Part shown: positions 16,459 through 63,912 of the stretch, in pieces
How the letters are laid out: each line of letters begins with the position of its first letter
How positions within the stretch are numbered: the first letter of the stretch is position 1
Notes under the pieces: model-generated
Told to the model about the DNA's origin: nothing
Database searches by the model: none
Seen by the model: the letters and a program-made list of their open reading frames with translations, nothing else
Source: Planoprotostelium fungivorum
Taxonomy: Eukaryota; Evosea; Variosea; Cavosteliida; Cavosteliaceae
Assembly (NCBI GenBank): GCA_003024175.1
Contig: MDYQ01000164.1
Coordinates: forward strand, 1-64,000
Length of the DNA stretch: 64,000 nucleotides
Reading direction: 5' to 3'
Program-made: the position numbers and the translations under genes

Positions 16459-16628
16459 GATCCCACACTGCTCCCTTGTTTCATTAGCCAACATTAGAGA
16501 TCAACATCAATACATCATGCCTGTTTCACTGTCTCGTTCGATTTGTTTCTTTATTGTCCATTTTATTTGTAGACGAAACGGAACTGTCTTGGGACGTCAA
16601 ACGCATCATCACCCATCACACGATCAGC

Positions 16629-17609
16629 ATGACGGTCCCTCTAATCATCCGAGTAGTCGCCTCTCTCTTTCTCAGTTCTTCCATCGCCTATAGAGGTTAT
16701 CGTAAGAGATCACTCAGTCGATACGGCTGCGTCTGTGCCTTCTTCACTGGACTCCTGACCACTCTGTCTGGATATCGAAACTCTGCTATCCTTTTGTCTT
16801 TCTTCTTCTCTTCCTCCACTCTAACGAAATACGGAGCAAAGCACAAGAAGAACTTGGAGGATGAATACAAAGAAGGTGATAGACGATCGTCTCTCGACGA
16901 TGATGTAATTGGAATAGGTGGTCAGAGAGATTCATATCAAGTATTGAGCAACAGCGCCACTGCGACACTATTGTGTCTTGTCTACCTCTATTTCTACGGA
17001 ATGGAAGAGATATCACTCGATTTCCAACAGGACTTTTTTGGCTCCGCCCTCCTCTGTGCCATCTTGGGGTGATCTTCCCTCATTCCATCCGATCATCAAC
17101 TCATACTGAACAGACACTACGCCTGTTGTAACGGTGATACGTGGGCCTCTGAGTTGGGCATTCTGTCTAAATCTGATCCCATCCTCATCACCACCGGAAA
17201 GAGGGTCAAGAAGGGTACGAACGGAGGTGAGCCATCATATAAACAGAAACAACCACGTGAAACGATTCGAGGTATCTCCATGGAAGGAACGGCAGCCAGC
17301 GTGGCAGGAGGACTCTTCATCGGTCTCATCTTCTATCTGTCGTCTCTGATGACCTCCTCACGCTCACCCCTCCTCGTTCTCCTCCTCGGTACCCTCTCAG
17401 GACTGATGGGTTCTCTCATCGATTCCGTTTTGGGAGCAACGTTACAATACTCTGGCTGGAGCGAGGAGAAGAAGAAGGTGGTCAACCAACCAGAGGCAGG
17501 GGCACACAGGATCACGGGGAAGGAAGTCCTCTCCAACAACTCTGTCAACTTTGTGTCGGCAGCCCTGACGGCTCTCTTCACCATTCCCCTCGGTGCTCTG
17601 CTCCTCTGA
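16629..17609 (+). CDS. TMEM19/DUF92 family integral membrane protein
   Basis: Three exons encode a polytopic membrane protein. Landmarks of the DUF92 family are KYGAKHKKNLEDEYKEG after the second helix, CCNGDTWASELGILSK, GTNGG followed by ISMEGTAASVAGG, and GLMGSLIDSVLGATLQYSG with NNSVNF near the end. The family includes human TMEM19 and plant VTE6, a phytyl-phosphate kinase; whether the amoebal protein has that activity cannot be told. I start at the ATG at 16,629 because upstream in-frame sequence lacks an ATG and a possible acceptor lies near 16,572. A short first exon may therefore be missing. It lies directly after myosin-I and converges on hyccin. Confidence 0.88.
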
Positions 17610-19406: not shown

Positions 19407-19993
19407 ATTGCCAGGCCGATGTTCACCGACCATTAAGTCCTCTCGTTGTAGTTGGACGACATCTCTCTGGAGATATCATATCACAGAAGAGAGAGAGAAA
19501 CTCTCTCAACACTTTCCAGGACAGGGGCAACCAACAGGTGGGGATCTCTTCATCATTCACACATCTGATTCACCTTTACGTGATGATAAACAGTTCTGCT
19601 TCTGCAAAGGCTTTGAAGAAAACTCATACCAAAAAACTTCTGATCATTATCACATCGAACATCTAAGCATGTTTTGAATCTCTGCTTACCAGATTCGTAG
19701 GTTATCCTCTCGGACCTGATCGATCAGGCTATAATGCCTTGTATATAAATCGAACTATGATTAACTGAATGAACAACTTCTCTATTGTTTGAATGCGAAA
19801 CCTGTGGCAAACGTTGATGACATCAGAGAGCATCCGCTTTTGTGCTGGATGAAGGTGTTCCTGTGGAACCAAGTGAGGGAGGCGTTGTGTTGTTCGAGAG
19901 GGTTCCGCTGCCCAATTAATTCAACCCTTGACAGTCTTTCTCTTCGGCAAAAGAAAATCTCCTCTTGGGTGGTAGCAGCACAGACACCGAGGG
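19407..19993. other. Divergent intergenic region, no gene seen
   Basis: About 590 bases separate the hyccin start (-) from the Rab32-like gene (+). I see no family-like reading frame. It probably contains both promoters. Confidence 0.5.
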
Positions 19994-30318: not shown

Positions 30319-32622
30319 TCAAAAGTGTTGATCGAAGAGGGTGCTATCGGGTTGAGAAGGTTTGAGAGGTACCGTCTTCTCTTGGCCTCCATGGTTCGTC
30401 AAGATGTCTTCTCCATTGAGATGGCGGATCATCAGATGGTTGAAGGGTCGGTGCTGCTCAAAGTACTTGTCGTACTTACCACTGTCCGCTCTAGGGTAGA
30501 TTCTCGTGAACTCTCCCTTGCCCTGAGACGATGAGTGTGTCTCCCTCTCCTCCCTCTCACCTCTTCTTCGTCCTGCATGTCCTTCAGTAGTGTTTGGACG
30601 GTCTCCTTCGTGATCAATCCTTGATCGCTCAACACTCTCCACGCTCTGTCATGAACATGAGATGTCATCATCGTGTCATGACACTCACCGTTTCGATTGG
30701 GCATCCTGGGTGTCTCCTGGCAGGTTGTAGACTTGGACCATGTTGAGTATATCTGATATGACCATAGACTGCCGTCGTCACATTCAACGTCGATGGATAC
30801 ACACACCTTTAGATTGAGATCGATGGGAGCATCACAAGACATGGAAGGAGAGAGATTCACTTCCATCAGCCACGGGTTCAACTTCTCGTCCAAGAGAACA
30901 TCGAATCCAAACATCTCGAAACAATTTCTCCTGCTTCAAATCAGATCAAGAAGATCACATCAAGGTGATGAGATCGAGGTGATGGATGAGATGATGAATG
31001 AGGTGATGAGATCGAGATGATGGATGAGGTGATGAATGAGACCTGTATGGGATAAGCATCTGAGCGCCGATGTTGATGTGGGCTTCCGCTGTGAGGATCG
31101 TCTTGATGATGAGATCATTGATCGACTCCTTCAACTGGATGACATCAGGTGGATGATCAGATGATCTCTCACCTCATCAACGTTGATTCCCTTCTTTGCC
31201 ATGTGTTTATGTACATCCGTCAACAACCATTTGCTCGCATCCTCTCCCGATCTCTGTTCAGATCATTCTCCTCTCCTTCACTTCTTCGCAAATGAATGAT
31301 ATGGAATGTGATGGATGACGAATGACGTTTGATCTCCTGTCATCTCAATAGAATGAAAAGCTCACCTCTGCTAAATCGCTCCTGACGAATTTCTCGTTCT
31401 CCTTGTTGACCGAGTAATTGGTCAAGTGGATGAAATTGTTGTTGATACCCTCCGGGTTGGCATCGTATCTATCTCTATCAGTCACGTCCCAATCACCTCC
31501 TCCACCTCTCCGTGGAGAATCTTCCCAAGCCTTGGTTGTAGACGTAGAGCCTCAGGGGATTGATGGAAGTGAGGACGACGTAGATTCTCATGTCAAATTT
31601 GAAACCGTTGATGAGATAAGGATTGTCGACGTATTTCGAGATGACTGTGGGTCCATCGATCTCGGCCTTGTATCCTTTTCTCTTGAACACGTGGATGCCC
31701 CTTCCACGAGAGAGATTGATCGGCTTGGAGATCCACAAGGATTCACCTTTTTGGTTTCAGTAAGGTGATGTGATGATGCGATGATGTGATGATGTGAGTG
31801 ATGATGATGTGAGATGATGATGTGATGTGATGATGTGATGATGTGAGTGGTGAGTTATGATGAGAGAAGAGGAGAGGAATGGATGTCTCACTGTCGGCAG
31901 GCACCTCCGCCAGGAATTTGTTGTACTCTCTAGGAAAGACGTATGTCTCTGGCATGAAATTGTATTCCTCCTTGTGGTCCGCTCTGTTTCACGTCACTGA
32001 GAGGCTCCACTCGTTATCCTCACCTCATCACCATGTAATTATTCCAGATCACGTCCTTTCGAGTGAGACTCGATGTTCGTGGCCAGTGGTTGATGCGTTG
32101 ATACGGTTTCATCGCCGTGATGATCTGCGTCTTTGGATGTCCTTCGGACATCTATCAACAAGTGATGGAACAAGCGAGACAAACCTCCACACCACAAGAC
32201 ATTCCAATTCTCTTTCGATTCATCTGAGATCCCTTGTATCCCCTGCGCTCCTTTTCAATGAATGCTCATTGATTATCAACTGTGATCTGACGAAGAGAAA
32301 ACAAGGTTGATTGATACTCACATGCCATCTGAGGAGATGACCAAAGAGTTTGCATTTTGATGATGTCAGACGATAACCCAGATGAGGTATGACCGGACGA
32401 AACGTCGGGAGTCGGTTCTCAGCCAGAGGAATCAACTCTTTATCACTTTCAATCACACATATCATCCAAATGTTCACCTGTCAGAGGGAGTCCGCTGAAG
32501 CGGATCTTACGGCTATCGAGAGTCAGAAGAAATTCTCGTCGTCGAACTCACAGAGTCTGCGCAGCTACCGCTTGGCTCATGTCACTCTCCTTTGTGATCT
32601 GTCCTTCCTTTTCTTCGACCAT
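30319..32622 (-). CDS. Tubulin tyrosine ligase-like (TTLL4/5-type) enzyme
   Basis: TTLL enzymes add glutamate or glycine chains to tubulin using an ATP-grasp fold. Exons in order give TFRPVIPHLGYRLTSSKCKL, NWNVLWCG, MKPYQRINHWPRTSSLTRKD, MPETYVFPREYNKF, LWISKPINLSRGRGI (ATP-binding KP...SRGRGI), YVDNPYLINGFKFDMRIYVV, NFIHLTNYSVNK, and MFGFDVLLDEKLNPWLMEVN (Mg-binding Glu/Asn) then LSPSMSC. The C terminus reads GEFTRIYPRADSGKY ... FEQHRPFNHL, also a TTLL5 feature. More than ten exons are needed. The start at 32,622 (MVEEKEG) is tentative because the same frame extends 50 codons upstream. Substrate choice (glutamylase versus glycylase) cannot be called. Confidence 0.9.
31755..31862 (+). repeat. 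GATGATGTGATGATGTGAG minisatellite in a TTLL intron
   Basis: Tandem imperfect units of GATGATGTGA fill most of an intron of the TTLL gene on the opposite strand. Related GATGAGGTGATGAGATCGA units occur at about 30,950-31,040 in another intron of the same gene. These short-period repeats may vary in length between strains. Confidence 0.8.
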
Positions 32623-39086: not shown

Positions 39087-42000
39087 TTAGATCCAAGGCT
39101 GCCACTCTGCAGAGTGACCCAATATCCTCTCGGTGGAAGAAGCCACATCGATGAGCCTCTCCACCCTCTCCATGGAGATCATTCCCTCCTGTTGATACGA
39201 TGGCCCCATCTCCACCAGACGAACGAGGGCGAGTTCCGTGTTCAACTCGGAAGCCTCTCTGAGCTTGCTCTTCCATTCGATCTCCGTCTTCCTCTCTGAA
39301 GGTTGGTCTGGCTCGTGGATTCTGCAGGCCGCAATGTCATCTCTGAGGGTGAGGGCGAGATGGTGTCTGAGATAATCTCGATTGTCCATGAGACAGCGGA
39401 GGACGGCTGCCATGGATGCTGCCATCGATCCTCTCGTGAGGAGGGGACCGACGAGTCTCTGGAGGTTCCTGCTCATTCGGAAGGGAGTGTGGCCCTCTAC
39501 GATCATCTTCCCTTCTGCCGTGTACTCTGGGTAGTATTCCTCTTGGGTGATGGTCCCCGTCTCTTGGAAGAACACAAGATCTTCTGGTCTGGCATTCTGA
39601 GAGTGTTCAGCACAAGAAGATCTATTATAGAAGGATAGGAACAAGAGAAGATATATTATATAGAAGGGTAGAACAAGAGAAGATATATAAAATAGAAAGA
39701 TAAAACAAGAGAAGAGAATAAGAGAGGAGAGGGAAGAGATTCTTACCTTAATACCCAGGACATAAGAGAGTGCAGACTGTGCGGCGAGCTGCAGAGTGAC
39801 TTGCCTTCGGTAGGCAAAGAGATTGGCCGAGTTGTGTGTCAGATTCGACACGTAATCCACCAGCATGGTGTCTGGTATAGACCCCACGATCTCCTGGTAC
39901 GTCTCCGTCCTCTTCTCCTTCCCTCCCTTTCTGTAGTAATCTTGCGGTGAATACACGTCCTTCTGTCCCACTTGGATGCACTTCTCTCGGTAGGGCAGGT
40001 GCATGTTGAAGTGTTCTACGCTGGGGATGTGAACGATGCGAGTGTCTGCAGAGAGGGGAATGGTGACGGGTACGTGGAGGTGGATGTTTCTCTTCCTCGT
40101 CTGGTGACTCTTGAGGAGCCAGCGACCGACGAGTCGCATGAGCTTCTGAGTCCTCTCCTCGCTGTGGCTGTGGAATCTCTGGCTGTTCTTCGTGTCGGTG
40201 TCCACCATAAAGTGTTGGGTTCGACCGTTGATGCCTCTCATGTGTATGATCCTCCTTCCCATGACATTGTCCACGGGGGATAAGATTCGATCCAATCGAA
40301 TGTGCAGCTCTGATGAAGGTTCTCCCTCCTGTATCTCATCAGTCTCTCTCTTGTGTGTGATGATGTCTGTGATGTATTCTCACCTGATAGTATTGACCGG
40401 GTATCTCGATGGAGCTGTTCTGGAGGGAGGCGAGGAAGGGTGAGAGGTCCTTCATGTTCTTCCTTCCACTCAACTCGGCCTTTGTCTTCAGCTTGTTGAG
40501 CCATTCCTTCATCTTCTCGATCGCTCCCGTCACACTCTTCTCTTCCCCAAACTGCTCTTGCAGTTCACTCGCGTACGTCTCCTTGGCCGATTCATACTGT
40601 CCTCCTTCAGTTTCACACTCTCCTCTCCTCTTACCTCTCTATGGCTCGTGGGTATGACACTGAAATCAGCCAATTGTTTCAGACGAAGGGAGAAGGTTTC
40701 ATCTTGGATGACATCCGATGTGTCATCCAGGCCATAAGCCTGTGAGGGTGAGGATGGATATGAATGGGAAGCCTTACCATACGGATGGTGTAGTGAATAA
40801 ATAGATACAAGAGGGTGGGAGCGGTGGGAGATAGATCGTGACAGATGTCGTGGGCGATCTTCTCCATGTCGTGCGTTACGGGGGCGAATTTTGTTCGGAT
40901 GAATCGAAGTAGCTCATCGATGTAGGCAGCCACGTTGGGTGCTGGGGATGCCGATTGACCCTTTGATGCACTCCTGCTCTACTGTCATTCTCTCTCACAT
41001 CACAACATCACGTGTCACACGATAATATCAAGGGTTGAATGAGTGTACAGACCTGAGGTGGAAGAAGACAGCTTGAGGATAGAAAGAGGCTGTCCTCTGT
41101 AAGGTCTTGATCAGCCCCGATTCATATTTCCTCAAAGAACGAAGGAGAGTGGGGACATAAGAGATCCATATCCACAGTGGAATACCCTCCACGTTCCTCT
41201 CCAGGCACTTCATCAGTCGATCACTCTCGTCATCGTGATCCACCAACAGCAGGACTCGTGCCAAGTGCATCCTACACCCTTCAGTCCATCGATGACGAAT
41301 CATCTCTTCACCTGGCCTTATCCTTTCCTCCTCTCAGCGCTTGCAGGTAACAAGAGATGGAGTGTTCGGCCCAAGTGAGGTCCTTCGTCTCGGTGAACTG
41401 CTCGTCACAGAATTTACCCCAGACTAACCAGGCTGAAGAAGAGTTCTCGAAGGTCTGAACGGATTCACTGAAGGACCTGTGAGCTTCTTCCAAGTGCCCT
41501 GTCTTCCACTGGAGCTCTCCTCTCATGCTGGCCACTTCGGCCTTCTGCTGGGGCGAGAAGAACTCGGTGGGAGTGGATGCCAGTGTATCCATACCTGCCT
41601 TCCACCTACAGACATTCAGTGTCATCCATCTACATGCAGTTCTACCGATTGGAGCTGCTCATGTGACACTTCATCTGCTCGCAGAACTTGTTGAATGCGT
41701 CCTGCATGTCGATGTTGACTAGGATGTGGATCTTGCTCTGGATCTGCAGACACAGATCGACCAGCTGCTGCTTCCTCGCCACGTGAGCGAACGTATTGAT
41801 GGTCCACGCTGTCTCTGCTTGAGCCAGTAGATTTCCTCCCACTTGTTGCTGCTTCACGTCACTTCTCTCCTCCTTCTCTCTTCTCACCCCTTCGGCTGCG
41901 GTGGAGTGTGAGTTGATGACGTTCAGCACGGTGTGTTGTCTCCATAGCAACAGGTCACTCCAGAAGGTGATGTCTTCCCATTCGTTGGGCAGACGATCTC

Positions 42001-45000
42001 TCCACTGGGTGAGAATGTTCTTCACATCAGCCGATGAAGTGCTCGTGCTCGTCTTCACTTCCTTCAACATCTGAACGGAATCCCTGCACACGATCAGTGA
42101 TGACCAACGAGGAGAACGAACCTCAGCTCCACGATCTTGTGGAAGGACTGTAAGAGAGGAATGTGTGCAGAAGAGGGGATGTCTGGGAGGCATTGGAAGG
42201 ATTTGAGTGCCAGCTGAGTTCCCTGGTTGAGAACGGATTCGACTTCTCCTCCTCGATTCTCGTGGATCCACAGGTAACTCTGAACGATCTTCTGAGACAC
42301 CGTGTCGGCTCCGAATTTAGACAGACAGTCCTTCACGTTCGTCCAATCAGATACCTTCCATGCTGATTCCTGTTCCATCATCAGATGATGTCCACGATGC
42401 ATCGATGATGACGATTGACGTATCGATGATGACGATTGACGTATCGATGATGTCACTCACCAGGAGTAGATCTGGATGTGGGACAGATTTTGCGATCTCG
42501 GTCAACACGTCCCATTGACCGAGGTGCTTGGCACACTTGACCCAGTGGTCTTCCCACAGAGATCCCTGTGTGTAATCCACACCGTCTCTCCTCGTCTCTC
42601 CACTTCTCATCAGCTTGTAAAACTCTTCTTGAGCTCCCTCCCATTGTCCTTGTTGTTCCATTCCAAAGGCCCTCTTACTCTCTTCACTGCTGTTGGCCAT
42701 CAGAACATGATAGTGTAGGTCCTCCTCGTTCAGTAGAGAGAAGATCTCAGCCAAGGCTCTGTATGTCTACGGATCGACTCAGTCTACGCTCTTCCAAGGT
42801 GAGAAGATGAAGGATCACCTCTGGTTCAGGATTCTGGTTGTAAGATCTCTCGATGAGCATGATGGCTGGGTTCCACGCGTTGAACGACTTTGCGAGATAC
42901 TTCAAGAGCTCCACGGGGATCTTTGGTGCTTGCTCGCAGCTCTGCATGGCCTCCAAGAAGGCTTGTATGACGTTGGGATTTCCTCTCATCTGCTTCGAGT
43001 GGTACTCCTTGGTCAAAAAGGTCACGATGTCCCTCGTCATCTCTTCTTCCATGTTCTTCATCTTCACCTGTTGGATGTCAACACATCATCATCACGACCA
43101 TGGAGGATGAGATGATGAGATGAGGTGACTCACAGATGACCACATGGATTGGAAGAGATCAGAGAAGACGGACAGACAGACATCCACGTCAGAGTGGATC
43201 ATGTCCCTGAGGTATCCGATGATGTCCGTGACGGTAGTTCCCTTGATGGTATTGACAAACTTGGATTGTTGAATGACCAACTGATCGTATCGATCCTCCG
43301 CAGAGGCATCAGCGGGGAGTGGATCTATATTTGGAACCACGTCCACCGTGGCGGGTTGTAGAAGAGCGTTGGGGAAGATGGAGGTGAGTCTGAAATCTGC
43401 GCCGATCTTGATGGTAGACAAGAGCAGATCTAACATCTGTCTGACCCAGAAGGTAGATCCCATGTTCTCCCAGTTCGACGATAAGATCTTCTGCAGCCTC
43501 GACGTCAAGTCACGTGGCATGTTCCCATCGTAGATCGAGAGGAACTTGTTTCGGATGGAGGACTCCTTCGTTCTCATTCCGGTCATGAAGCCAGATTCCA
43601 GAGGAGACAGGTCACTCCTCTCCACGCTGGGATCAGAATACATGAAGACGATCAACTCCAAGTAGGATTCGTGCAGGGCAGGCACCCCACTCTCGAATCG
43701 TGACATCTTGGTCAACAGAGCCACCTGATGAGGTCAGACGTACGTCGAAGACATGAGAGGGATGTCACCTTGTCCTTTGGTGTGAAGATCTCTGGAATCG
43801 ATTCGTCCATGGAATCAGATAGAACGGAGGGGTAAGGATCCACGGGTGTGCTCGCCTCGGCCGTTTCGCTGGGAATGCCCACGGACAAGCTGAGACCTGT
43901 CACCTGTCACTTTCGTCTGAAAGTCTCCCAGTCTCACCGTGGCTCACGGGTGTAGCCACACCGGTGGAATTTACGCTGACGCTGACGGACGCATTGGCAT
44001 CGTTGTTCGAGTTGAGGGTGGGAGGGTTCAGCTTCTTTCCCGTGATCCAGAATCCCACGACATTGACGATATCGGTGAGGAGCTCCACGTCGGTTGACTT
44101 TTCGATGAGAGAGACGAGGAGGGTGATGATCTGCTTCCTCTGCTCGGGAGTCATCGAGGTGGCGAAGCGTGAGGCCGCGCCGATGCAGATGATGAGACTG
44201 GCCGCTGTCTCCTTCACGATCTTCGATTTGGCTGCAGTGGCTTGCGTCGCTCCTCTACCTGTAACCCCTCGTGAGATGACATGTGACATGTGGCAGATGA
44301 CATAGGAGAGATTGTGCCCACCTGGAGCTACAGTGGGAGCGGAAGCAGAGGCAGCTGCAGGTGTGGCAGGAGTGGCAGCGGTGGAAGGATCAGCGGGAGG
44401 GTCGGCAGTATCCTTGGGAGGAGAGATGTGATCCTTGATGAGCTTGGTCATGGTGGTCAGTATGGGTGTCACCACACGATCAGCTGTCTCCACACGAATG
44501 GAAATGAGAGTCCTCAAGATGAGAACTGTCGAGTGGATGTTGGGTTGATCTGGATTGTTCAAGTTGTTCTCGATGATGTTGCAGATGTGCAGGTAGAGCG
44601 GTGCCATCTACAATGGTCACGCACACACTCTCTCCTTCTCTCACCTCCGTCTTGGCCTCACTGGTGGGTGGAAATTTGACGGAAATCTTCTGGAGGAGGG
44701 AACACAGAGATTGGGCGATCTGACACAGATGAGTGTGGCGGGTTGTAGATGGATCACCTTGGGATTGTTGGTGTTGACGATGGGAGTGAGGGCTGTGCAG
44801 AGAGCGGGAAGGTTGTCCGTGAGGAGACGAGTGAGGTTGGAATCGATGGCGATGGATAAGATGCTGAGGACCGTGACGATCATAGTGGGCTGTTGGACCA
44901 TGCCCAGCATCTTCTCGATGTACATGTACTTGATGTTCACCTCGGGCCAGATGGCGATGGCAGATTGGAGGATCTCCAGTATCCTGTCGATGGGATTCAT

Positions 45001-48000
45001 CTCTGCTGCATTCTGCTTCCTTTGTTACGATTTCATCCCACGAAGAGAAATAATGCGTAGAGAGGATAGATGAGTGGGTAGAGAAAGGATGAATGTGTAA
45101 AGAGGATAGATGAGTGGGGAGAGAAAGGATGAATGTGTAAAGAGGATAGATGAACTGACCTGAGCTGCCTTCTCAGAGTTGGCTTGTTGTGCGTCCTGTG
45201 GTTCACTCGAATTGTGAGCCATTCTCACGAGAAAGTTGACGATGATCTCAGCCCCATCGATGCTGCTCTTGGGTCTGAAGACATCCATCTTCTTGTTGTC
45301 TGCCGCCTCCACTGCCTTCTCCTCCGCCGTCTCCTTGTCGTCTTTCTTCTCATCGATCTGTCACTATCAATTCTCCATCCTCTCGTGGAGCTTCACCTCC
45401 ATCGAATCCGTATTGAGGGCGGGTGTCGTGAGAGTACCAGTGAGATTGTTTCCCTCTTCGTTCTCCTTCTCACTGTTGTTCTCTGCGATCTTCCTCTGTT
45501 CCCACTGGATGATGACACCTTATCACGGTCAATCGTACATCAAAGAACTAATACTCACTGGCTAGATCGAGGGCCAACTTCTTGTTCTCAAAGGAAGTGT
45601 TATTGGCCAGACCGATCTTGGCGAGGGAGTTGATCATGTGGAGGACGAAACCGGTGCGAGCGGGATAGAAGAGGGCTTGATGTCTGTGGATGAGATGGAA
45701 GATGTGAAGGAGTTGGTTCTGGGTGTGTGCCTCTTCCACGATGACCTTCCTGACCACTCTGACCCACTGCAAGCTGCCGAGTCTCTCGTTGAGTGAGGGT
45801 GTGATGATGTCCAGAGCTGTCTTCACCAGTCCTTCCGCTTCCATCTGGTAGGACTGCAACCGTTCAGCGAGATGTCTACGATGGATGGTCTCACCCTCAG
45901 TAGAGCGAAATAAACAGTGAGGATGATCTTGGGAGGTGTGTCGAAGGCTTCGATGAAACGAGCGACGAGAATGTGGGCGTGCTGTCTCGTGATGGTGTCC
46001 TCACACTTTAAAAAGTTCCACGCAAACTTGATGAAACTCTTTCGGATGTCTTGCAGGAGCTCGCCAGGGTTCGTCTTGACGATGAGTGCGGCGAGTTGTA
46101 GAGCCTCGATCTTGAAGGCATCTGAAGTCTGAGTGTCTCCCTCTTCGGTATTGTCCACACAGAAGACATCGGTGGCGATCTTTTGGATGGACTTCTGGTC
46201 CAGCACTTCCTTTGTTTCTCCCCTCTCCGATGCACACTGCAGCATGGGAATGATCAAGACCTGAAGGGCTTGCACCTTGTGCTCCTGAGGCACTGGCTCC
46301 TTGACAAAGGCGAGGAAGCGTGTGAGGATCTTCTTCTTCTCTTCGGGGGTGTATGTCTCTGAGATGGTCTTGTGGTAGTATTCCTTCAGGAAACTGTAGT
46401 CAGTCGTGTTCCTCGTCGTGAAGATAGTCAACATGTGGAACAAGACATCGACCTGCATGTCATTCAGTCATCCACTCCACATCGATGAGAGGATATCATC
46501 AAGATGTGACGCACCTCTCCGTGATTGTGACTGCAGTGATTGAGGAGACACTTGATGATCAACTTGGATTCCTTCAGGTGATGCAGAGGAAGTGCCTCGT
46601 CGTTGGCCAAACGAGTCTGTCTGGCTGGACTCTGCCACAACTCGATGAGACAGTCCAGGACAGGTTTACCCTCGTTGGATAGCCACAGGGGAAGATGCTT
46701 CAGCAGGATCTTCGTGATGAGCAGTCCTTGATATTGAAACTCGAAGCCACCCGAGGAAGATTTGAAGGTGTGAGTGATGAGGCGAGCGGGTTGACTGGCA
46801 ATGTGCTCTCGCAGGGGTCCGGCCTCTTTTTCAGACAGAGCGTTTCTGTACAGACGACTGAAGGGTGGCTGTCCCAACCTTGCCAAGAAGAATTCCGTGG
46901 CTTCGTTCTGGATGCAAATGAATACTGTGGGTGTGATGCGATGTGAGATGTTTCACCTTGTACTTGTTGAGGTACTTGACTAAGGGAGCTCTGTATGGAC
47001 TCGACGATTCCCTGTGCAGTTGAGATTCCAGATTGATGGTGATGGTGACCAGAGGCTCTAAGAACTTGAAGGCAGCGTTAGGGAGGAGGTGGTAGATCTC
47101 TATGACAGCAGCGATGATCTTGTTCTCTTCTCCGTCCTTCGTTCCCTTGTTCATTCTTCCCATCTCAGCCAATCGCTGCAAGTGCTCCAACAACTTGTCT
47201 CCCAGCGTCACGTTGAAGCTGCTGGCCAGAAGATCCAGCAGGTGAGACAATCCCGTCAGCAGTGGGATACTCAGCTTGCGGTAGTCCGCGAGATTCAACA
47301 GAACGGGACGGAGACTCGATTGGAGAGATTCCTTGGATAATCTCGTGTGGGGGTAGATCTATCTCCATCAGTCCCATCCATTCATCCACTACTCACCAAA
47401 AAGACCGATTTTCGTGCCACTTCGGCCACTTCGCGATTGCGTTGTGTCAAAAACTTGAAGAGCTCGGAGCAGATCTTGTTCTTGAATTCTTGATGTTCTG
47501 CACCGGACATCTCGGGGGACGTGATGGATGCGGTGAGTAATTCGATGGATGCGATCTTGAGTCCAGTGAGTAGGTTCATCTGCTTGGCTGTCATCTTCTG
47601 TTCGGCTCCCGTCGTCTCGTCTCTCTCTACGATCAATTGGGCCGGCTTCAAGACACCATCCATCACCTGCTCATCCATCAATCATCCCTCTTGATGACAT
47701 CGATGATGACATCGCATCGACGATGTGATACACTCACTTCAGGTGTGTAGTTGACGAGGTGGAGTTGAGCACAATACGCCATGGCATCGATGCATCCTGT
47801 TTGGAGAGTGCTGGGCATGTCACGGAGAGGTCGGTGGAGGATCCCCCCAATGAGTTCTTCCTTGATGGGCTCCAACAATTGAGACGGTGTCTTGTTGTAT
47901 TGTGTGGCCAAGTGGGAGATGGACTTCTGTGCCAATTGTCTCGAAGTGACGTTGCTGGATGCCAATTCGGAACAGAGGAACCGAACGATGGGTAACACGT

Positions 48001-51000
48001 GTGTCGTGTCTCTTGATGCGGAGGGTTCCAGGGGTAGCATGGGCGTATCTTCTTCTTCTTTCTCGACTTGCATCTCACTCCCCTTCGTCTCTTCATTTGG
48101 ATCTGTTTTATGTCACGAGAAAGTAATGAGAGAGATGAACAAGAGAGATGAATTACCGTGACGATTGCAGAGGGTGATGACGTTGTGGATGTTCTCAGTG
48201 GCCTCCTCGATGGTAGAGACGGAGATATCGGGTGCCATATCTCGAATGATGAAGAACATGGCCGGGATGATCTCGCTCTGGTACTTTCTCGTCCACGTCA
48301 CTGGCATCTTGGACGATAAGATCTGTATTCCACTGCACCCTCCACTCTTGTTGTGCCACAGCGAAGAAGAACACGCTCGGATCAACCTACTCCATCAGCA
48401 TCCATCGAAAGGAACGATGACTCACTTTGTGATCAAGAGGTCAAAGTGTGGACTATCATCGAGGTTCTCCTTGATGGTGAGCTTGCACATCTCCACCATG
48501 TTCTCGATGGCCTTGCATGCCATCTTGATGTGATTTCGATTGTCCACGCAGATGGCATCGACCATGGCATTCACCCACACGAAAGAATCCACCTTGGCCT
48601 CTCGACTGGGTTTCGCCTCGATCTTCTGAGCCCACAACACGGCAAAGTGTCTGCAGAGATCGTCGACGTATTCACCCGACAGCTCGTTCAATTTGTCGAC
48701 GGATGCAGCGATGAGAATGGACTCGAAGAGACCACTGACGCGAGACACGAGGGCCTCCCCTGCATTCTCCTTTGATGGTGGTACATCTTCTGTCTCCATG
48801 GCATCTTCTGTGCTCAATTCGGGGAAAGTCGTGAGGACGGTGTTGGTCATGGCCTTGACAAAGGAGAAGGACTGCCGGCGGTGGTCCATATCAGCCGAAC
48901 TATCGTTGTGAGAGGCTATTCAAGTGGTGGATCTCTATAGAGGATGGAGACACACCTCATGATCTTCTGTTTCGCCTGTTGTACGGAACGATCCAATTGG
49001 ATGACGACCTTACTTCCGTCCTCAAATTCTACGAGGGAGTCGAACGACTTCTCGGTGAACTCCTCCGTCTTCAATTTTGGTGGAACGTGGAGGAAATCTC
49101 GATTTCTTCCCGCTAATTTACCCAGAATACGAAGGGCTTGGGGGCCGTGGGGGTAAGGTGCAGGTTTCAGATGTCTCCACAAGGCAGTCATGAGCTCGAT
49201 CTTCACCTGATCATCTCCATCAACCATCGTTCTCTCTTCCTCTCACCTCGTTGATGGTGGGAGCTATGAATGCAGGCATCAGATTGTCCAGACAGAGCTC
49301 GAGAGTACGCAGACCATTGTTGACGAGATCCGTCCCACTCTCTAAAGCCACGACGAGAGGTTTCATCAGCACTCGCAGGGAGGGAAGGAGAGAAGAGAGG
49401 CGAACTGGAATAGTGAGTGCCAACTCCACGTAGATGTCTCGTAGCGCAGGTGACGGTGCACTGTTCTGCAGGCGAGTCAAAGTCTCCAGCATATCTGTTT
49501 CGTATGAGTGAAATGTCTGTGGAGAGTACAACTCACTCGGTAGGAGAGGTAGAAATTCCCTGTAGAACACGTCGAATTTTCCACTTCCAACACTTCGAAA
49601 GAGAGCCCTCAGGAGGATGAAGTAATTGTTCGAGTCCTTCACCTCCGTCGCGTGTTTGATGGCCGACGTGATGAGCAGAGCCAAGTGAGGCTGCAGCACC
49701 GGCTCGTTGTCCGCAAACAGAGTCACTGACCCGAACACCAGCTTGAACAGCCTCAAGAGAACCGATGAGACCGTCTTGTCTGGTCCAGATAAGCTCCCGA
49801 TCCTCTCGATGAGGAAATTGAGGAGGACGTCGGCAAAGTACTTTGAGCAATTGGGGTTGGCCAGGAAGTGCTGTGGGATGTTGAGCATGGCCTGGTTCTC
49901 CAAGATCCTCTCGAAGAGGAAGGGCATCTGAGTGGAGAAGGCGTCCTGGAAGATCCTGGGCTCCACCATGGTGAACACCGCGGCGAAGTGATCGAGCGTG
50001 TCCTTCTCTTCGGCCAGTGCGGGCTGATTACCCTCTGTGAAGATGGGGAAGCACTTGAGACCGTTCTTGAGCAAGCTGACAAACATGGAGCTCTCCTCGG
50101 GTGTCATCATCTTGGGAGGCTGCTGGGGTTGTGATGCATTGGGGTTCCTGACCATACCAGAACAATTGGAGATGCCCCACATGATGTTCTTCAGGGAGAC
50201 GACGAGAGTTCGCATGAGAATCCTGCAGTCTCTGATCTTGTCGTTGCCCTTCTTCTTGTTCTTCGCCTTTTCGATGACCTTTGGAATCTCTTTCCTCAGG
50301 CTGCTGAACTTGTTGACTGCCACTTCCAGGATTCGAATCAATAACGTTCTCCCTGTGAGAGTGAATCTCTCGACTTGTTGCATCGCTTCACCTTTTCCTT
50401 CGGCATCGTTTCGCTTGACGATGCCTTCCACGAGATTGATGATGAGTTTCACCGACATCGTCTGTACGGTGTAGATCAAGGTGGAGTCGTGCAGATTCCT
50501 CGTGTAGAGATAGACCACTCTCTGCAGTTGCGGCCACGTCAGGTCGTTACGGATGTGATGGATGAGATCGGCCAATGTACTGAAGGCGAGGGGTCTGCTC
50601 TCGTCAATTCAAATTTCAACGGTATCGTGTGATCTATCTATGAATCACCTCAAAGTATCGAAGGCCGTCTTTCCTGTACCGATGAGGACCCTCTCGTCTA
50701 AGAGAGTGTCGATGTGAGCCGAGAATCCCTCCCGGAAATCGGAGCTGGTCAGAATGTGCCTCGTGGCCACCAACAATTCCTTTCGGATCGTGGCTGATTC
50801 GTGTGGGCAAGAGGAGAGGAGTCCAATGACCGATTTGGGGATGGATTCTTGATGTGGATGTTGTAACGATTTGTTTCCTCCTCTGAGCATGAAGGCCAGG
50901 AAGGAGAGGGTCTTCACTTGTGTGGCGACCAGGTCGATGTACGCTAATCTGTCGTCGTTTCACTCTCTCTGTGACGAAGGGGAAGATGTCATACCTGTAA

Positions 51001-51958
51001 GGTGAATTGGGTGCACGAGCGTTGGGTGGAGCTTGTAATGCGATCGTGTTGGCCACCAGAGGAATGAAATTCTTGATGCTCGGTTGCACGAAAGCTGGAT
51101 ACAATCGTAACAACAAGACCACGATGATGGGACACTCTGTCAGCACCTACGTTCATGAGACGAACAAAAGGGACAGAATAGATGGATGATGATGATTCAG
51201 TACCTTGAAGGACTGATCAGCTTTGGTCGTCGGTGTCGGTTTAGAAGGGTCTTGTTGATTTTGATTGTTGATGTTCGTTGGCTTTGGGGGCTCCACGGGT
51301 TTACTGAAGACAGTAGATATGGTCTTAGGCAGGTCGTGATACGACTTCTGCACCATGTCCAAAAAGGGTTGAACTTCGTTCTCTTGGCTGGGTCGAAAAT
51401 TCTTGTGAAGATCGACGAAGATTCGGAGACATATGAGAGCGTTCTCTTCGTTCTCTATGGCCAAGAGATGGACCATCAGCTTGGCCAATCTAGATCAAGA
51501 TGAGACGATCGATTGGTAAATGTGATGTGATTACCCTGGAGCTAAGTTCTTGAGCAGCTCATTGTTGGGTAGACGATTGAGGGTTTCCAGTATCGTATTT
51601 CTTAATTTCTGTGCTGGATTATCTGCAAATTGAGGTTGTCCGGTCCTAAGAAGCTGGAGATTTTCAGTTCGTATCTTACGATCTTTCAAAGAAGGACTTA
51701 CCTCTATAAAGTGTGGAAAAAGATGAGTCAAAAAGTTCTTGTATTCATTGGCATTGATCAGCTCGATCCCTTCTCTGACGTCCGCTGCGATTTGGACTCG
51801 TTGAGTTACGTCTATACTGAGTCAATCCGTGTCTAACAAGGACTCATATAGGGTGAACACGGGAATGTGGTTTGATCACCTTGCTGAAACGTCTGTCCTA
51901 GGACCTCATAATCGATTGTTCCTTCTGCAGTCGTTGGTTTCGTGCTGGTGGACGACAT
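39087..51958 (-). CDS. TRRAP: TRRAP/Tra1, giant PIKK-family scaffold of SAGA and NuA4/TIP60
   Basis: The gene spans 12.9 kb and about 3,600 codons, matching the 3,700-3,900 residues of yeast Tra1 and human TRRAP. The N-terminal exons after [20 protein letters not shown] carry HEAT-type helices ([52 protein letters not shown]) and continue through a long alpha solenoid and a FAT region. The last exons give the PI3K-like domain: [20 protein letters not shown], then [20 protein letters not shown], then [15 protein letters not shown]. It ends HSAEWQPWI like the FATC end HPWL of TRRAP. No HRD or DFG-like catalytic motif is present where a PIKK would have one, so it is a pseudokinase as in all TRRAP proteins. 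It acts in the nucleus as the activator-binding subunit. More than thirty short introns are inferred; individual exon limits are approximate. Confidence 0.94.
39597..39746 (-). other. Stop-free, frame-preserving 150-nt TRRAP intron
   Basis: Splice sites GTAAGA (39,746) and CAG (39,597) flank exactly 150 bases, a multiple of three, with no stop in the TRRAP frame. If retained it would add 50 residues rich in Phe, Leu, Ile and Tyr ([20 protein letters not shown]). The intron is built of AAGAGAAGATATATTATATAG-like units in tandem on the + strand. Neighbouring exon ends (VLGIK and [10 protein letters not shown]) join well without it, so it is most likely spliced out. Confidence 0.75.
45040..45160 (+). 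repeat. Tandem 40-base repeat in a TRRAP intron
   Basis: Three nearly identical units of about 40 bases (GAGGATAGATGAGTGGGTAG and so on, ending GAATGTGTAAA) lie in tandem between TRRAP exons. They make this intron about twice the usual length. There is no coding role, and copy number is likely to vary. Confidence 0.85.
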
Positions 51959-52190: not shown

Positions 52191-52865
52191 TTAAAAGACG
52201 AGATCGTCAGGATCGAAATCGTCGGAATCTAAGTCACTGTCCACTTCCAGATCGTCGTCCCATTCTGATGCCGCAGCTGGTTGTTTGAACTCCACCTACT
52301 CGTCTTCAGCGAACATCGATGATCAGAACGCACCCTCTTATCGTATTGGAAAGCGGCATCTCCTGGTTTGACCTGATTCTCCACAAATGTCTCGTTCATC
52401 ACCCCTTTGGCCTTCACAATCTCCTCGTGCGATAGCTTGTTCAAATTCGTATCACCATCGAAGCCAGCAGCAGGTTGTGCTGATTTAATCGGTGGTGGTG
52501 CCGCGGTGATGCCTCCTCTTTCACGCATGGCGGAAGATGTTAACTTGTCGATCATCTTGGTCACCAGTTTGTTCAACTGATTGATGTTCAGAATGTCACC
52601 ATACAGAAGCTGTGCCACTCACCTGTGATCGCTTCACAATCTTCGGACTCAGGTGATTTGGATGACGCGTGATGAGGGCGTCAACGATTTGTCCAGCAGA
52701 AGACCTGGATGTCAACCCTCTCACAGGCATCTTCCTTCGTCTCACACGGCCATCTCTGATTCCGATCAGAATGTGGGACCTCTCAGAATCTTACCTTTCA
52801 TATTCTAGGACCAACAGGGGTGGAGAATAACGTACTGCAAAACGTTTCGGTTTTATGGAGTTCAT
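52191..52865 (-). CDS. CEP19: CEP19 homologue (centrosomal/ciliary protein)
   Basis: CEP19 sits at the mother centriole and recruits RABL2B and IFT-B at the start of cilium assembly. The start exon (52,865) reads FAVRYSPPLLVLEYE, the next MPVRGLTSRSSAGQIVDALI then HPNHLSPKIV, matching human IILIYE and [20 protein letters not shown]. The third exon (AQLLYGDILNINQLNKLVTK) and LNKLSHEEIVKAKGVMNETF then VENQVKPGDAAFQYD match [20 protein letters not shown] and EKNQKKKDDPNFVYD. The C terminus is very acidic (DDDLEVDSDLDSDD). Length is about 175 residues. The family is almost confined to ciliated eukaryotes, so the source organism probably has a flagellate or centriolar stage. It is divergent from the DIX-EF gene across 74 bases. 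Confidence 0.88.
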
Positions 52866-52939
52866 GATGTGTTTTTTAACGGTTAAAACCTGGACTTGGC
52901 CTACAACAGAATTTCCAAAACTCAGCCTTGAGCGCCAAA
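52866..52939 (+). promoter_or_regulatory. 74-bp bidirectional promoter with E2F-like motif
   Basis: The start codons of CEP19 (-) and the DIX-EF gene (+) are only 74 bases apart. Bases 52,932-52,940 read GCGCCAAAA, the reverse complement of the E2F core TTTTGGCGC, directly against the ATG of the DIX-EF gene. The two genes may therefore be co-regulated, perhaps with the cell cycle. The motif is short and the inference is weak. Confidence 0.45.
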
Positions 52940-54313
52940 ATGGCATCACCTGCCGACCAGACCATAGTCAAGTATATCATCTTAGAGACTGATGATTATA
53001 AAGAGCCGGAGCATCCCAACTTCTTTCGCTCTTCCAAGCCGGCACATCAGATGAAGCTGCACGACATCAAGGAGAGGTTCATAGACTGGAAGGTGTGAGC
53101 AGATCAACGATGGAGTCTCTGAAATCAGCAGGGATCTTTTCATTTTTATTTCAAAACCAAGATCAAACCTTCCAGCGCTGATGATGAATGGATGTGGGAG
53201 GATATCGATGCAGACGATTCTTACGTCCCGTTATTCAATGGAGAAATCTTTGCCAAGGCAGTGCGAACTGGTTTTAAACAATTCTTCGAGGTCAAGTCGA
53301 AAGACAAAGACGTCTCCGCTTCGATCGCTTCGATCGCGTCACCAGGTGTGACGAATACTTCGAATAGTGAATGATGTCAGGCGCAGGAAATGCGGCGAGT
53401 CCTGTTCTAAGTAGAAACGCATCTTTACCCACCAGTCCAACGGCTGCGTCTTCCCCCACTGCCTCACCCCTGGTGATGAGAAAGCGGTTTTCTATCGCAG
53501 GCATTCAAACTTCTCCCTTGCAAAGCCCGAGGGGTACCCGCAGTGAGGCTGATGAATCTGACGAATGGGTTGACACTTCTCCAGGTACGTCAAAGATCGA
53601 CATCTCGATGGAAGAGGAGGCCATGTTAGAGGATCTGGGAAAGAGCACTCACTGTGAGTCCGATCGTTGATGATGAAAACTGAAGAGTACCAGTTTCGAT
53701 CGTAGAACTGAAGGCGATGTATACGAAATTCAAGAGGGAAACGCCCAACATGCTGATCGACAAGGAAGGTTTCGTGAAGGTTACGAAAGGAATGGGTATA
53801 CAGGTGAGCCTTGTGAACATCTCGTTCGCTCATGAAGATAGGATGAATTCCTGCAAGATCTGATTTTCAACAAATTCGACCGTGATAAGAGTGGATCCGT
53901 TGATTTCATCGAATTTATCTCTGGGTTGAGTGTGTTGACCAGAGGAACACCGGACGAAAAATTGAGATGTGATCCTCATCACCATTCAAACCACGATTGA
54001 TCGAAATCAGCCGCATTTGAAATGTACGATATCGATGGAAACGGAAGCATCAGCAAGGAAGAATTCAAGAAGATCTTATCGAGTTTCATCGTTTTCCGTG
54101 GTGGGACCATCACGACGTTCACTGGAAAGACGTACAATAACATCGATGACATCTGCGATGAGTTTTTCAATGCGATCGAAAAGGTGAGATGACCAGCTTC
54201 ATCGTGCAACATTCAACTGAGAGAAGGTGAATCCGAATGAGGTCACATTGGCAGAATTCCAAGCTGGAGCATCGAAGAATCCAGACATCATGAGAGGGCT
54301 CAGTATTGTATAA
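52940..54313 (+). CDS. DIX-like domain fused to EF-hand module (368 aa)
   Basis: Seven exons (52940-53092, 53162-53345, 53381-53653, 53694-53803, 53842-53968, 54011-54183, 54227-54313) sum to 1,107 bases, exactly 368 codons and a stop, with all introns GT...AG and the frame kept. Residues about 9-86 form a DIX-like domain: [29 protein letters not shown], and [20 protein letters not shown]. The last block matches the Dishevelled stretch EEISDDNARLPCFNGRV, and EHPNFF recalls EHPHFM of plant SOSEKI. Residues about 90-200 are a Ser/Pro/Thr-rich linker with many SP and TSP sites. Residues 253-264 ([12 protein letters not shown]) and 289-300 ([12 protein letters not shown]) are canonical EF-hand loops in a calcineurin-B/NCS-like module with helices on both sides. 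DIX domains polymerise head to tail; EF hands bind calcium. A calcium-controlled polymerising scaffold is my inference. I know of no described DIX-EF protein. Confidence 0.78.
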
Positions 54314-54807
54314 ACATCTTAATCCTTATATCTACATCATATATCATGTATACACCCAAATGAGAGATGATGATGTTATCCTGTTGATTCCAATCGGTCG
54401 AATTCAGAATAGCTATACAAATAAAGTTTGTATACCGATGACTACTTCGATGCCTTGGTGTGTTGGGCTCCTGTAATTCTGAACAAGAATGATGAGAATG
54501 TTTTCTTCTATAGGAGCCACACATCTTGGTGACAAAATCACACGTGGAAAGTGAAGTCATGATGACGTCGAGAATTGTACACGTTCCTCATCAAGACTCG
54601 GAAGGACGTCATTGAATGTCTTTTGTTCGGCGGGCGGGGCCGCCAGATCTGTTGGTCTTGCCTGTGATCACAAGTTCTGAAAATACTTCGGAATTCAAAA
54701 ACGCGCTTACAACTGGCTGGGAAACGAGGAGATCCACCGAAATACAAATTGTATTCGAGCAGTTCATCTCTTCAAGGTCTGTCTAATACGCTGAAGAGGG
54801 ACAAGAG
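54314..54807. other. Intergenic, no gene seen
   Basis: About 490 bases lie between the DIX-EF stop and the PEX1 start. A minus frame at 54,538-54,747 is open but resembles nothing. The region is AT-rich near 54,320-54,360 (3' UTR) and holds the PEX1 promoter. Confidence 0.5.
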
Positions 54808-59400
<4,593 letters not shown>

Positions 59401-59441: not shown

Positions 59442-61835
59442 TTATTGGGGTAGGACGCCCACCGTTCTCGCTTCGATCTTGTTCATGGTCATAAACTTGA
59501 CCAACTGTCTCCTCTCAGTTTCTCTTCCCTCTCGTCTTCCTTCTCACCTGCGTGGGTACTTCAGCTAGAGTCTCCTTGGCCAACAGATCGGGCCGGCTAG
59601 AAAACTTGTTGAAGGGAACAAATTGAACACAATCCCTGCTCAATCCTAATTTTCCATCATCATCGTCCAAGTTCTCCATCGAGGCGAAATCGGCGTTGCC
59701 GACGCCGACGATGATGACGGAGACGGGGAGGTTGGCCGAAGCTCTGAGAGATTTGACGGTGGCTTGGTAATCTGTCGAGGTGAGAAGGGAAGCAGTTGGG
59801 AGATGATTCACCGTTGATGACTCCGTCAGTGATCTGGTAGAGGTTCAGTTTTTGATCGTGTTGATGATCGATGATTTTTTGTGATGGATGTTGATGATCG
59901 ATGATCGATGATCGATGATGAAGAAGAGACTCACGATGAGAAGAACAAAGTATTTCGATCCGGGTCTTCCTCCCATCGAATTCTGAGCGAACCAGTTCAC
60001 TCGATCCAACACGGGAGAAAAGTGCGTCGGTCCCGACAGCGCCGCCCACGAGAAAGAATCCCTTCCACTCTATCAGCTCGATCTCCCTTTCTCTCCTCTC
60101 ACCGGTACACTTGGAGAACTCCATCGATGCCTCTGACTTCTGGGTTGGCTGGATTCCTGTTCAGTTCGAAACAGTGGCTGGTCTGTAGATGGTCAGGAGG
60201 TGAATGAGATGAGAGAACACACGGAGCCGTCTTGGAGAGCGGCGCCGAAACCGAAGACGGGGATATTTCCGTCGTGATCGTAAGGTGCACCTGTCTCTTC
60301 TTTCAATCTCTCTTCATCACGATGCATCGTGTGCATCATATCATCATCACGCATCATGTGGTGTGATGACATAGACATGGATGGTTCACTCACAGACGTC
60401 ACCAACGGAGCGTATGGCCTTTCCGTATTGATTGAGACTTCCATCGGGGGAGAAGTAGTGGAGGGACGTGGGGCTCCTCGGGTCTCCGTTGGAACCCGTG
60501 AAATCGACTGCAACAACCAACGAGATTTCGGTACCTCCGATGATGTACTCCAAGAAGCTGTAGAAAAGTGAGACGAGAGATGAAAACGGGGGGAGAGATA
60601 AATGTAAAGATTTGATTTGGGACTCACGAGGGATTCTTGTACTCTTTGTAGGTCAATTCGATGGTACCCGAGTTGGTGTAACTCTTCTTGGACACTTTCT
60701 TCGGTTCGATCAGTTGGAACGATTTCTCTCCCTTTCTCAATTTGCCCAGAGTCGTACTGGCTTCCCCCATCTGTTGTCTCATTAGATGGACGTGAGATGT
60801 GTGAAAGGTGTGGTGGTGATGTCATCTCGTGCATCACTTCCTGTATCATCATGATGTGACGACTCACAAAGTCCGGGCTGCCATAAGCGTCCCAATCGTA
60901 GCAGCGAATGATGATGGGAGAGTCCAAGCTGGTGGGTGCCAGTCTTAAACCCATCAGATGAGCTGACATGATGCAAAGAGGTAAAGAGATTCACCTAGAC
61001 ACGGGGAGCTCGAAAGGATGCCAGACTGGATTCAGATTGTTCTTGATGATTTCTGTCTTGTGGACAGGTGTGGTGCTTCCGCTGGGATCTTGTCTCTCGA
61101 TGACGATGTAGGGATCCGACTTTCCAAAGAAGTCCTTCTTCACGAGATTGACTCCACGCATCTGTGACACTCAACATCATGATGGAACAGGTGAATCAGA
61201 TGATTCGAGATGTGGACGATTGGACAGATGAGATCTCACTTCGAATCTGGCCATGTAGCCTTCCAGTCCCTTTGCCATCTCCACCGCCTTGACGTGTATG
61301 GTTCCATTGTTTCTTCCCGAGTGGTGAGGGTTGGTGAGTGGCTTGGTCAATTCACCATTACCGACTACTTCTCCTAGAGTCGTTATCTGCCCTCATCAAT
61401 CTCATACACCTCGAAGATCAGATATGACTCACCAGGTGTCCGATGGAGTCGAATTTTGTGACGACTTCTCCTTGTGTTGCATCTACATCTATGACATCGA
61501 ATCGAATGTGTTGGAGTTCTTCGAAGCGATATACGATCGAGACTGGTCTAGCGAACCTCGGGTTCAAGTTGTCTCTGTTCTTCCATCAGCGAATCATCAA
61601 CCGTCAATTGCTCCTTACTGAATGATTTCGGTCCTTCCAATAACGCTCCACGTGTCCACACCAGTGTCCTTCGCGTAGACAACAACCTGAGGATCTGATT
61701 TGGATAGCACGTCCAGATTGGGAAGGTGACTGGAGCGTGTGAGCGTTTGTATGATGACGGATGGACGACGAACCTGCAAGAGAATGATAGTTCCACACGA
61801 GTGGTGAGATCGGCAGGTGGGGCGAACGTAGTCAT
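59442..61835 (-). CDS. Copine (two C2 domains plus vWA/copine domain)
   Basis: Copines are Ca2+-dependent membrane-binding proteins that recruit targets to phospholipids. The start exon gives [20 protein letters not shown], followed by [18 protein letters not shown] and [16 protein letters not shown] (C2A). C2B has [20 protein letters not shown] and [20 protein letters not shown]. The A domain begins [20 protein letters not shown] with the copine MIDAS variant DxTGSN, continues [41 protein letters not shown] and [15 protein letters not shown], and ends [20 protein letters not shown] then LAEVPTQ. After the last intron a short tail ([20 protein letters not shown]) reaches the stop at 59,442. 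Acidic loop residues needed for Ca2+ (SDP, DWD) are kept. An alternative start lies upstream near 61,892. Confidence 0.94.
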
Positions 61836-62997: not shown

Positions 62998-63912
62998 TTA
63001 CTTCAATCGGATCCGCATCACTCGTCTCTTCGTAAGATTACGTCGGGGTGTGTGAGGTAATACGATTCGTATTGGCCTTCGCTTAGCGAGCTGGCTCTCC
63101 TTGAGTCTTTCAATGATGCCCATTCCGGTGGAGTAATCGTGGTCGTCAGACTTCCTCTTCTTCGAAGCCTTGCTCTTTGTCTTCTCTCCTTTCAGTTCAG
63201 CTCTTCTCCTCTTCTGTGAGTCTTGTATTTTGTAATCAGAGTGATACTTTGCAGCATCTGCCAGTTTGGCCACGAATTTCGGCGAGAGTGGTATTTGGCA
63301 ACGTTCAGCAATCGTCCGATATGCAAATGCAATCCCATCGTTGACATGGATGATGGTGAAATCCACAGCAAAGGTGTAAGCTGTGCTTCGTGCCTTGTTG
63401 GTATCTTTTGGTGAGTATGTCCTCAATATTGAGTTGAACATCTCATTTCGTTGAGATGATGACATGTCGGCGATCTTCTTTGCGTTGACATCACATGCGA
63501 AGGCCTCCAGTGTGTCAGATAATTTGTCCCTCAGGCCCAGGTGTGTGAGGAAAGGTTTCTTGTGTGATCTGTTTCCTTTACACCAATCTCCGCACTGGGT
63601 GTGCTCTCCATAGTAGTGGGGGACAATTGTGCGCAGGTTCTTCTGAAGACTCTCCCAATCTCCAGCATTGCTCTTGACTGCCATCCGGAATGCAGTTTGG
63701 AGCCGTTTCACTTTGTCTGCAGTGAATTTTGTTCCACGCTCCATCTTGACTGCCTTGAATGAGGTCACTATGTTATACAGTTGGTTGCCAAAGTTCCGCT
63801 TGATGTGTGTGAAGTCTGAACGCTTTTCCACTTCTCCAATGATGTCCTTCAGGTCCCAAATGCGCTTCTGAACACTTGAATCCTCATCACCAATCAAGGT
63901 TGAAATGATCAT
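62998..63912 (-). CDS. Mutator-like transposase, C-terminal part
   Basis: The exon reads VIGDEDSS-like sequence at its start (ISTLIGDEDSSVQKRI), then NFGNQLYNIV. HTQCGDWCKGN follows, then DMSSSQRNEMFNSILRTYSP. These are landmarks of the Mutator-like transposase domain found in many animal and protist elements: a GDGDSS block with a catalytic Asp, an ECGxWC zinc-like motif and an SxQxNExxN block with the catalytic Glu. The tail is very basic (KRRRAELKGEKTKSKASKKR). The N-terminal part lies past the window edge; an acceptor AG lies directly before the first codon listed. The element looks unbroken within this exon. Terminal repeats cannot be seen. Confidence 0.8.
   Translation of the reverse strand: MIISTLIGDEDSSVQKRIWDLKDIIGEVEKRSDFTHIKRNFGNQLYNIVTSFKAVKMERGTKFTADKVKRLQTAFRMAVKSNAGDWESLQKNLRTIVPHYYGEHTQCGDWCKGNRSHKKPFLTHLGLRDKLSDTLEAFACDVNAKKIADMSSSQRNEMFNSILRTYSPKDTNKARSTAYTFAVDFTIIHVNDGIAFAYRTIAERCQIPLSPKFVAKLADAAKYHSDYKIQDSQKRRRAELKGEKTKSKASKKRKSDDHDYSTGMGIIERLKESQLAKRRPIRIVLPHTPRRNLTKRRVMRIRLK

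Follow-up and report, generated by a model that had tools for sequence, protein, structure and literature searches.

Does a single gene of the amoeba Planoprotostelium fungivorum join a DIX polymerisation domain to a calcium sensor, and if so, what might such a protein do? DIX polymers serve as organisers of animal Wnt signalling and of plant cell polarity. The locus that raises the question lies at 52940-54313 of a 64,000-nucleotide stretch of contig MDYQ01000164.1 (the window, G+C content 48.8%), for which a sequence-only reading had proposed seven exons in one frame, a DIX domain at the N terminus and an EF-hand module at the C terminus.

The predicted gene occupies the forward strand, as do all of its features described below, and runs from an ATG at 52940-52942, in the context CCAAAATGG, to a TAA at 54311-54313. 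Both the splice models and a gene finder reproduced, as a prediction, the seven exons in one open frame with start and stop. The count of 368 codons given earlier was not recovered: the favoured splice model has 376 codons (376 amino acids), and alternative acceptors at introns 2 and 6 lead to 378 or 379. Exon 1 (52940-53092, amino acids 1-51) encodes the N terminus and the first half of the DIX domain, and exon 2 (53132-53345, amino acids 52-122 plus one base) encodes the second half and the start of a linker; intron 1 (53093-53131, 39 nt, phase 0) falls inside the domain. The junction that makes the fusion is intron 2 (53346-53386, 41 nt, or 35 nt with the alternative acceptor at 53380), which leads into exon 3 (53387-53653), a Ser/Thr-Pro-rich stretch that continues the linker to amino acid 211 plus one base. 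Beyond intron 3 (53654-53693, 40 nt), exon 4 (53694-53803) begins an NCS-type calcium-sensor domain. Exon 5 (53842-53968), which follows intron 4 (53804-53841, 38 nt), contains EF2 with a canonical loop at 53878-53913, and exon 6 (54011-54183) contains EF3 with a canonical loop at 54028-54063; intron 5 (53969-54010, 42 nt), between them, has the lowest splice score of the six. Finally, intron 6 (54184-54226, 43 nt, or 40 nt with the alternative acceptor at 54223) is followed by exon 7 (54227-54313), with the EF4 region, which has no canonical loop, the C terminus and the stop codon. All six predicted introns are of the GT-AG type and measure 35-43 nt, alternative acceptors included. The sole A[AT]TAAA motif on the forward strand within 52701-55000 is an AATAAA at 54420-54425, 3' of the NCS domain.

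We rejected the open frame as stand-alone evidence for this structure, as 6,392 distinct GT-AG parses with six introns, each 30-70 nt long, are equally open between the same ATG and stop; no open parse with fewer than six such introns exists. Support for the chosen parse comes instead from domain homology and splice scores. Because openness alone is not evidence, we wrote a gene finder for the purpose, with codon, splice-site and length scores trained on the other predicted genes of the window (this gene excluded) and with hand-set intron and gene penalties. The training set comprised 149 introns with flanking exons of at least 60 nt, themselves predictions rather than cDNA-derived; 80 of the 149 measure 37-46 nt, and the mean of all is 54 nt. 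The output at this locus was a single seven-exon gene of 376 amino acids. Measured against the training introns, those of the favoured model span the 14th percentile (intron 5) to the 85th (intron 4), and the splice score of intron 1 is equalled by 0.22% of 20,196 forward-strand GT..AG pairs spaced by 30-110 nt. The used frame stays open through all exons until the final stop and has the best codon score of the three in every exon; exon 3, which encodes the linker, is open with a positive codon score in the fused frame only. At the level of gene prediction, these results confirm a single gene with the DIX domain and the calcium sensor in one predicted frame.

The N-terminal domain (amino acids 8-93; 52961-53257, intron 1 within) matches the Pfam DIX family PF00778 with 42.5 bits against a cut-off of 22.2 (E 5.9e-11, profile positions 2-76 of 77). 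Standing above the curated cut-off and covering nearly the full profile, this match upholds the DIX domain proposed for the N terminus. In a single-sequence search of solved structures, the DIX domains of Axin and DVL2 came top but were weak (E 0.037 to 0.54), and SOK4 was absent from the nine matches. The same search returned chromodomain helicases at chance level (E 0.29 to 5.6), one of them, at 0.29, amid the Axin and DVL2 matches.

The residues expected to form polymer contacts were compared with those of the plant SOSEKI protein SOK4, for which PMC7042713 names D33 and H34 on the head side, W83 and K103 on the tail side, and H36, F37, F81, Y84 and D85. The reference sequence was that of PDB 6rsn, a crystal that carries D85A. 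In the alignment, H25, F28, W73, D75 and K93 match five of the nine named contacts exactly, and E24 is a conservative replacement of D33; N27 and E74 differ from H36 and Y84, respectively, and F81 lies opposite a gap. The SOSEKI-type head motif EHPNFF (amino acids 24-29; 53009-53026) aligns with D33-H34-P-H36-F37, W73-E74-D75 (53195-53203) with W83-Y84-D85, and K93 (53255-53257) with K103. Overall identity to SOK4 is 20%, and at this background at least five identities among nine contacts have a p of about 0.02, a modest value. On the animal side, the strand segment PLFNGEI resembles PCFNGRV of DVL2. The earlier reading was fair in seeing a mixture of plant and animal DIX features, given the SOSEKI-like head motif and the partial match to the SOK4 contacts alongside this DVL2-like strand.

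Neither the SOSEKI nor the Dishevelled/Axin/Dixin group accommodates the whole protein. With SOSEKI proteins it shares the N-terminal position of the DIX domain and the alignment of the head motif D/E-H-P-x-F, the W-x-D and the lysine with SOK4, but we rejected membership in that family because the isolated domain scores 12.7 bits with the Pfam SOK model PF06136, below the cut-off of 24.3. SOSEKI proteins have a CG motif and a KEY/zinc-finger domain (PMC7042713). In contrast, the C terminus here is of the NCS type; inspection of the translation by eye found no CG dipeptide, the protein's single cysteine lying outside any CG motif, and no further plant domain beyond DIX had a Pfam match. Likeness to the Dishevelled/Axin/Dixin group lies in the Pfam DIX match and the DVL2-like PLFNGEI. 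The defining domains of that group are PDZ and DEP (Dishevelled), RGS (Axin) and CH; none of these four is found among the 15 Pfam matches of the protein with E <=1.

The C-terminal domain (about amino acids 212-375; 53653-54310, introns 3 to 6 within) is colinear with residues 22-185 of NCS-1, without large gaps (E 3.4e-24). After NCS-1, the best 60 of 395 distinct sequences matched include other NCS-1/frequenin chains, KChIPs and hippocalcins and, lower, recoverins, calaxin and calmodulins; a calmodulin-calcineurin chimera ranks tenth among these 60. EF-hand loops were called by a PS00018-like pattern. Canonical loops were found only in EF2 (amino acids 261-272) and EF3 (amino acids 297-308), and EF1 and EF4 have none. 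The two canonical loops that had been read at the C terminus are therefore these, and the module was correctly taken for one of calcium-sensor type with two loops; it was, however, under-described, being a whole four-EF-hand NCS domain. Membership in the NCS family is indicated by the colinear four-EF-hand domain and by canonical EF2 and EF3 with a non-canonical EF1. NCS proteins are N-terminally myristoylated and start with MG. Here the protein starts with MASPADQ, followed by the DIX domain, and the MG start is absent. The resemblance to NCS-1/frequenin thus extends over residues 22-185, with EF2 and EF3 canonical, and the differences are that DIX and linker replace the myristoylated N-terminal segment and that the EF4 loop is non-canonical.

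Between the two domains, amino acids 106-205 contain eight Ser/Thr-Pro pairs compared to a shuffle mean of 2.44, and none of 10,000 shuffles reached eight, which bears out the Ser/Thr-Pro richness noted earlier. The linker also contains a KRFS and one RNASLP, the latter fitting a 14-3-3-type pattern. This composition is compatible with phosphoregulation.

Our favoured interpretation, which we consider somewhat probable, is that this one DIX-linker-NCS gene encodes a DIX polymer with SOSEKI-type contacts that clusters NCS calcium sensors. The DIX domain would form head-to-tail chains through these contacts, and the chains would hold many copies of the sensor in one place. With a local rise in calcium, EF2 and EF3 would bind calcium and the NCS domain would open its hydrophobic groove and bind a target helix; this calcium-dependent contact, weak in itself, would become strong through the multivalency that chain formation brings. 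Clustering or target binding may be tuned by proline-directed phosphorylation of the linker. In proposing this sequence of events, we infer polymerisation, calcium binding, clustering and target binding alike.

An alternative that we regard as possible, though doubtful, accepts the fusion but has the DIX domain form no long chains; it would dimerise or cap another DIX protein and so bring calcium sensing to the polymer of its partner. Such a role would suit the two of nine SOK4 contacts that differ (N27 and E74), and different DIX proteins of one SAR species do co-purify (PMC12077222). However, the main contacts of both sides are retained, and the DIX domains of all six SAR species studied polymerised alone in vitro, like animal and plant ones (PMC7042713).

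Calcium might also control DIX polymerisation itself, as the sequence-only reading proposed. This is possible but follows less firmly than clustering, because calcium works on NCS proteins by uncovering a target-binding groove, and the DIX domain or linker is only a putative target of that groove. A specific version, which we judge unlikely, is that a flagellum-bearing amoebozoan uses the protein as a DIX scaffold at the basal body or a cell pole, its polymerisation directly started or stopped by calcium binding to the built-in NCS domain. The genomic neighbourhood offers a hint of location. A CEP19 gene (52191-52865, reverse strand; Pfam PF14933, 109.5 bits, profile positions 1-151 of 151) stands head to head with the DIX-NCS gene, and only the 74 bp at 52866-52939 separate their start codons, so one promoter may serve both genes. 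The CEP19 protein belongs to centrosomes and basal bodies; in compact genomes, neighbouring genes are often unrelated. The SAR DIX protein ATHOS is located near the flagellar insertion point (PMC12077222). By analogy, a flagellar or centrosomal role of the DIX-NCS protein may be taken as a lead, no more.

Several other genes were recognised in the window. A class I myosin at 11596-17609 has motor, TH1 and SH3 segments and was split and run on by the gene finder. Among PDB chains its motor is nearest to Dictyostelium myosin IE (1lkx and 4a7f), with 332 bits versus 308 for the next protein in one half but only 257 versus 254 in the other, and its SH3 segment matches GRB2, intersectin and others at the top, with Acanthamoeba myosin IB towards the bottom of 46 matches. 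A copine with C2 and copine domains (59442-61835, reverse strand) is another calcium-type protein nearby. Myosin, copine and CEP19 together would fit an amoebozoan with a flagellate stage, or possibly a heterolobosean or another amoeboflagellate. Directly downstream of the DIX-NCS gene, at 54808-59400, lies a gene with a PEX1 N-terminal domain (first 205 residues scanned). On the reverse strand are a predicted gene of 3,704 codons (39087-51958) that looks TRRAP/Tra1-like by eye; a tubulin-tyrosine-ligase family gene in two predicted pieces (30319-32151); a Mutator-like transposase (62998-63912, Pfam PF20700); and a protein that looks secreted and carries a domain of glycosyl hydrolase family 16 (5141-6841). 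The frames at 3-2590 look reverse transcriptase-like by eye. A hyccin-family gene lies on the reverse strand within 17763-19646, and beyond it a snR61-type snoRNA (19575-19646, forward strand; Rfam RF00476) is the one snoRNA returned by the Rfam search of the window; ARAGORN, run with the bacterial code, found no tRNA in the window.

It is improbable that the locus instead yields two products, a 131-amino-acid DIX-only protein that retains intron 2 and an NCS-type protein begun at a downstream ATG. NCS proteins usually stand alone, an unspliced intron 2 brings the DIX frame to a stop at 53374, and an open frame runs from an ATG at 53371 via the linker into the NCS domain. Nevertheless, one gene scores 31.8, compared to a sum of 19.2 for two genes (4.7 for DIX alone and 14.5 for the best NCS gene downstream), and we rejected the two-gene model as outscored. 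Among the 149 training introns, the 41-nt form of intron 2 ranks at the 63rd percentile (the 35-nt form is shorter than all 149), no A[AT]TAAA occurs between the halves, and the seven listed candidates for an NCS start all lack an MG opening. The first ATG, moreover, overlaps the stop as ATGA, which would place the promoter of the second gene inside the first. As a separate observation, transcripts of the single gene that keep intron 2 would encode the DIX-only protein ending at 53374, which could be a chain partner without a calcium sensor.

It is very improbable that the N terminus carries PB1 or some other ubiquitin-like domain in place of DIX: PB1 and DIX have a common fold, PB1 occurs with EF-hands in Protozoa and Chromista (PMC7051960) and single-sequence AlphaFold2 gave an uninformative structure of low confidence, neither for nor against a DIX fold, for the DIX region, modelled as a read-through with a 13-residue intron insert (mean pLDDT 40.4, pTM 0.31), but DIX scores 20 bits over its curated cut-off along profile positions 2-76 of 77, whereas neither PB1 nor any other ubiquitin-like domain has a Pfam match and PB1 families are absent from the 15 matches of the whole protein and the 4 of the isolated domain (E <=1).

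A single gene for a DIX polymer that clusters calcium sensors, the interpretation we favour, can be set against what has been reported for the family. DIX domains were found in plants, animals and SAR organisms and none in fungi or green algae, and their origin was explained either as ancient or by transfer from SAR organisms (PMC7042713). The sources named in that paper are plant, fungal and marine-microbe data sets, and the stem 'amoeb' is absent from its main text; Amoebozoa may therefore have been outside that search. A screen of eukaryotic genomes identified 1,452 DIX candidates, which fall into eleven subclades, and one unconfirmed chytrid sequence; seven of the subclades include proteins of animals or plants and four are confined to SAR (PMC12077222). 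The SAR-only subclades, absent from Rhizaria, have a C-terminal kinase, ELMO or DnaJ domain or none, and the Musketeer proteins of SAR are ATHOS, PORTHOS, ARAMIS and DARTAGNAN (PMC12077222). The plan of the Musketeers resembles that of the DIX-NCS protein in its N-terminal DIX domain, disordered linker with short motifs and variable C-terminal domain, but the accessible text mentions no EF-hand among their C termini (PMC12077222), where the protein described here has an NCS domain.

Two further systems bring EF-hands together with polymerising domains. In protists, PB1 domains occur alongside EF-hands, mostly in single sequences or species (PMC7051960); these proteins likewise combine a head-to-tail oligomerising beta-grasp domain with EF-hands, but theirs is PB1 and the domain here is DIX, with PB1 unmatched. 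In animals, the single EF-hand of Naked/NKD binds the PDZ domain of Dishevelled (PMC7581431), so that an EF-hand acts together with a DIX polymer protein, although the two are separate proteins. These cases qualify the earlier claim that no DIX protein is tied to a calcium sensor. It stands for fusions in the literature searched, largely open-access text in which we found neither a DIX-calcium-sensor fusion nor an amoebozoan DIX protein; it does not stand for partnership in trans, given Naked/NKD, and it has a parallel in the PB1-EF-hand proteins. Searches for relatives yielded 4 stretches by a DIX protein pattern and 83 by a DIX alignment in a viral contig collection and 28 in bacterial and archaeal genome contigs, none of which was confirmed. 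The DIX-NCS protein is probably a new combination of known families, and probably in a lineage for which the literature searched showed no DIX protein.

A DIX protein in Amoebozoa would bear directly on whether these domains are ancient or were transferred from SAR organisms. If the protein is indeed an amoebozoan DIX protein, DIX polymers would predate the split between the animal-amoeba and plant-SAR lineages, which would argue against transfer from SAR organisms. The DIX-NCS protein would also be a one-piece parallel to the Dishevelled-Naked pair. With its sensor built in, it could provide a single small protein for testing calcium control of a DIX polymer in the tube.
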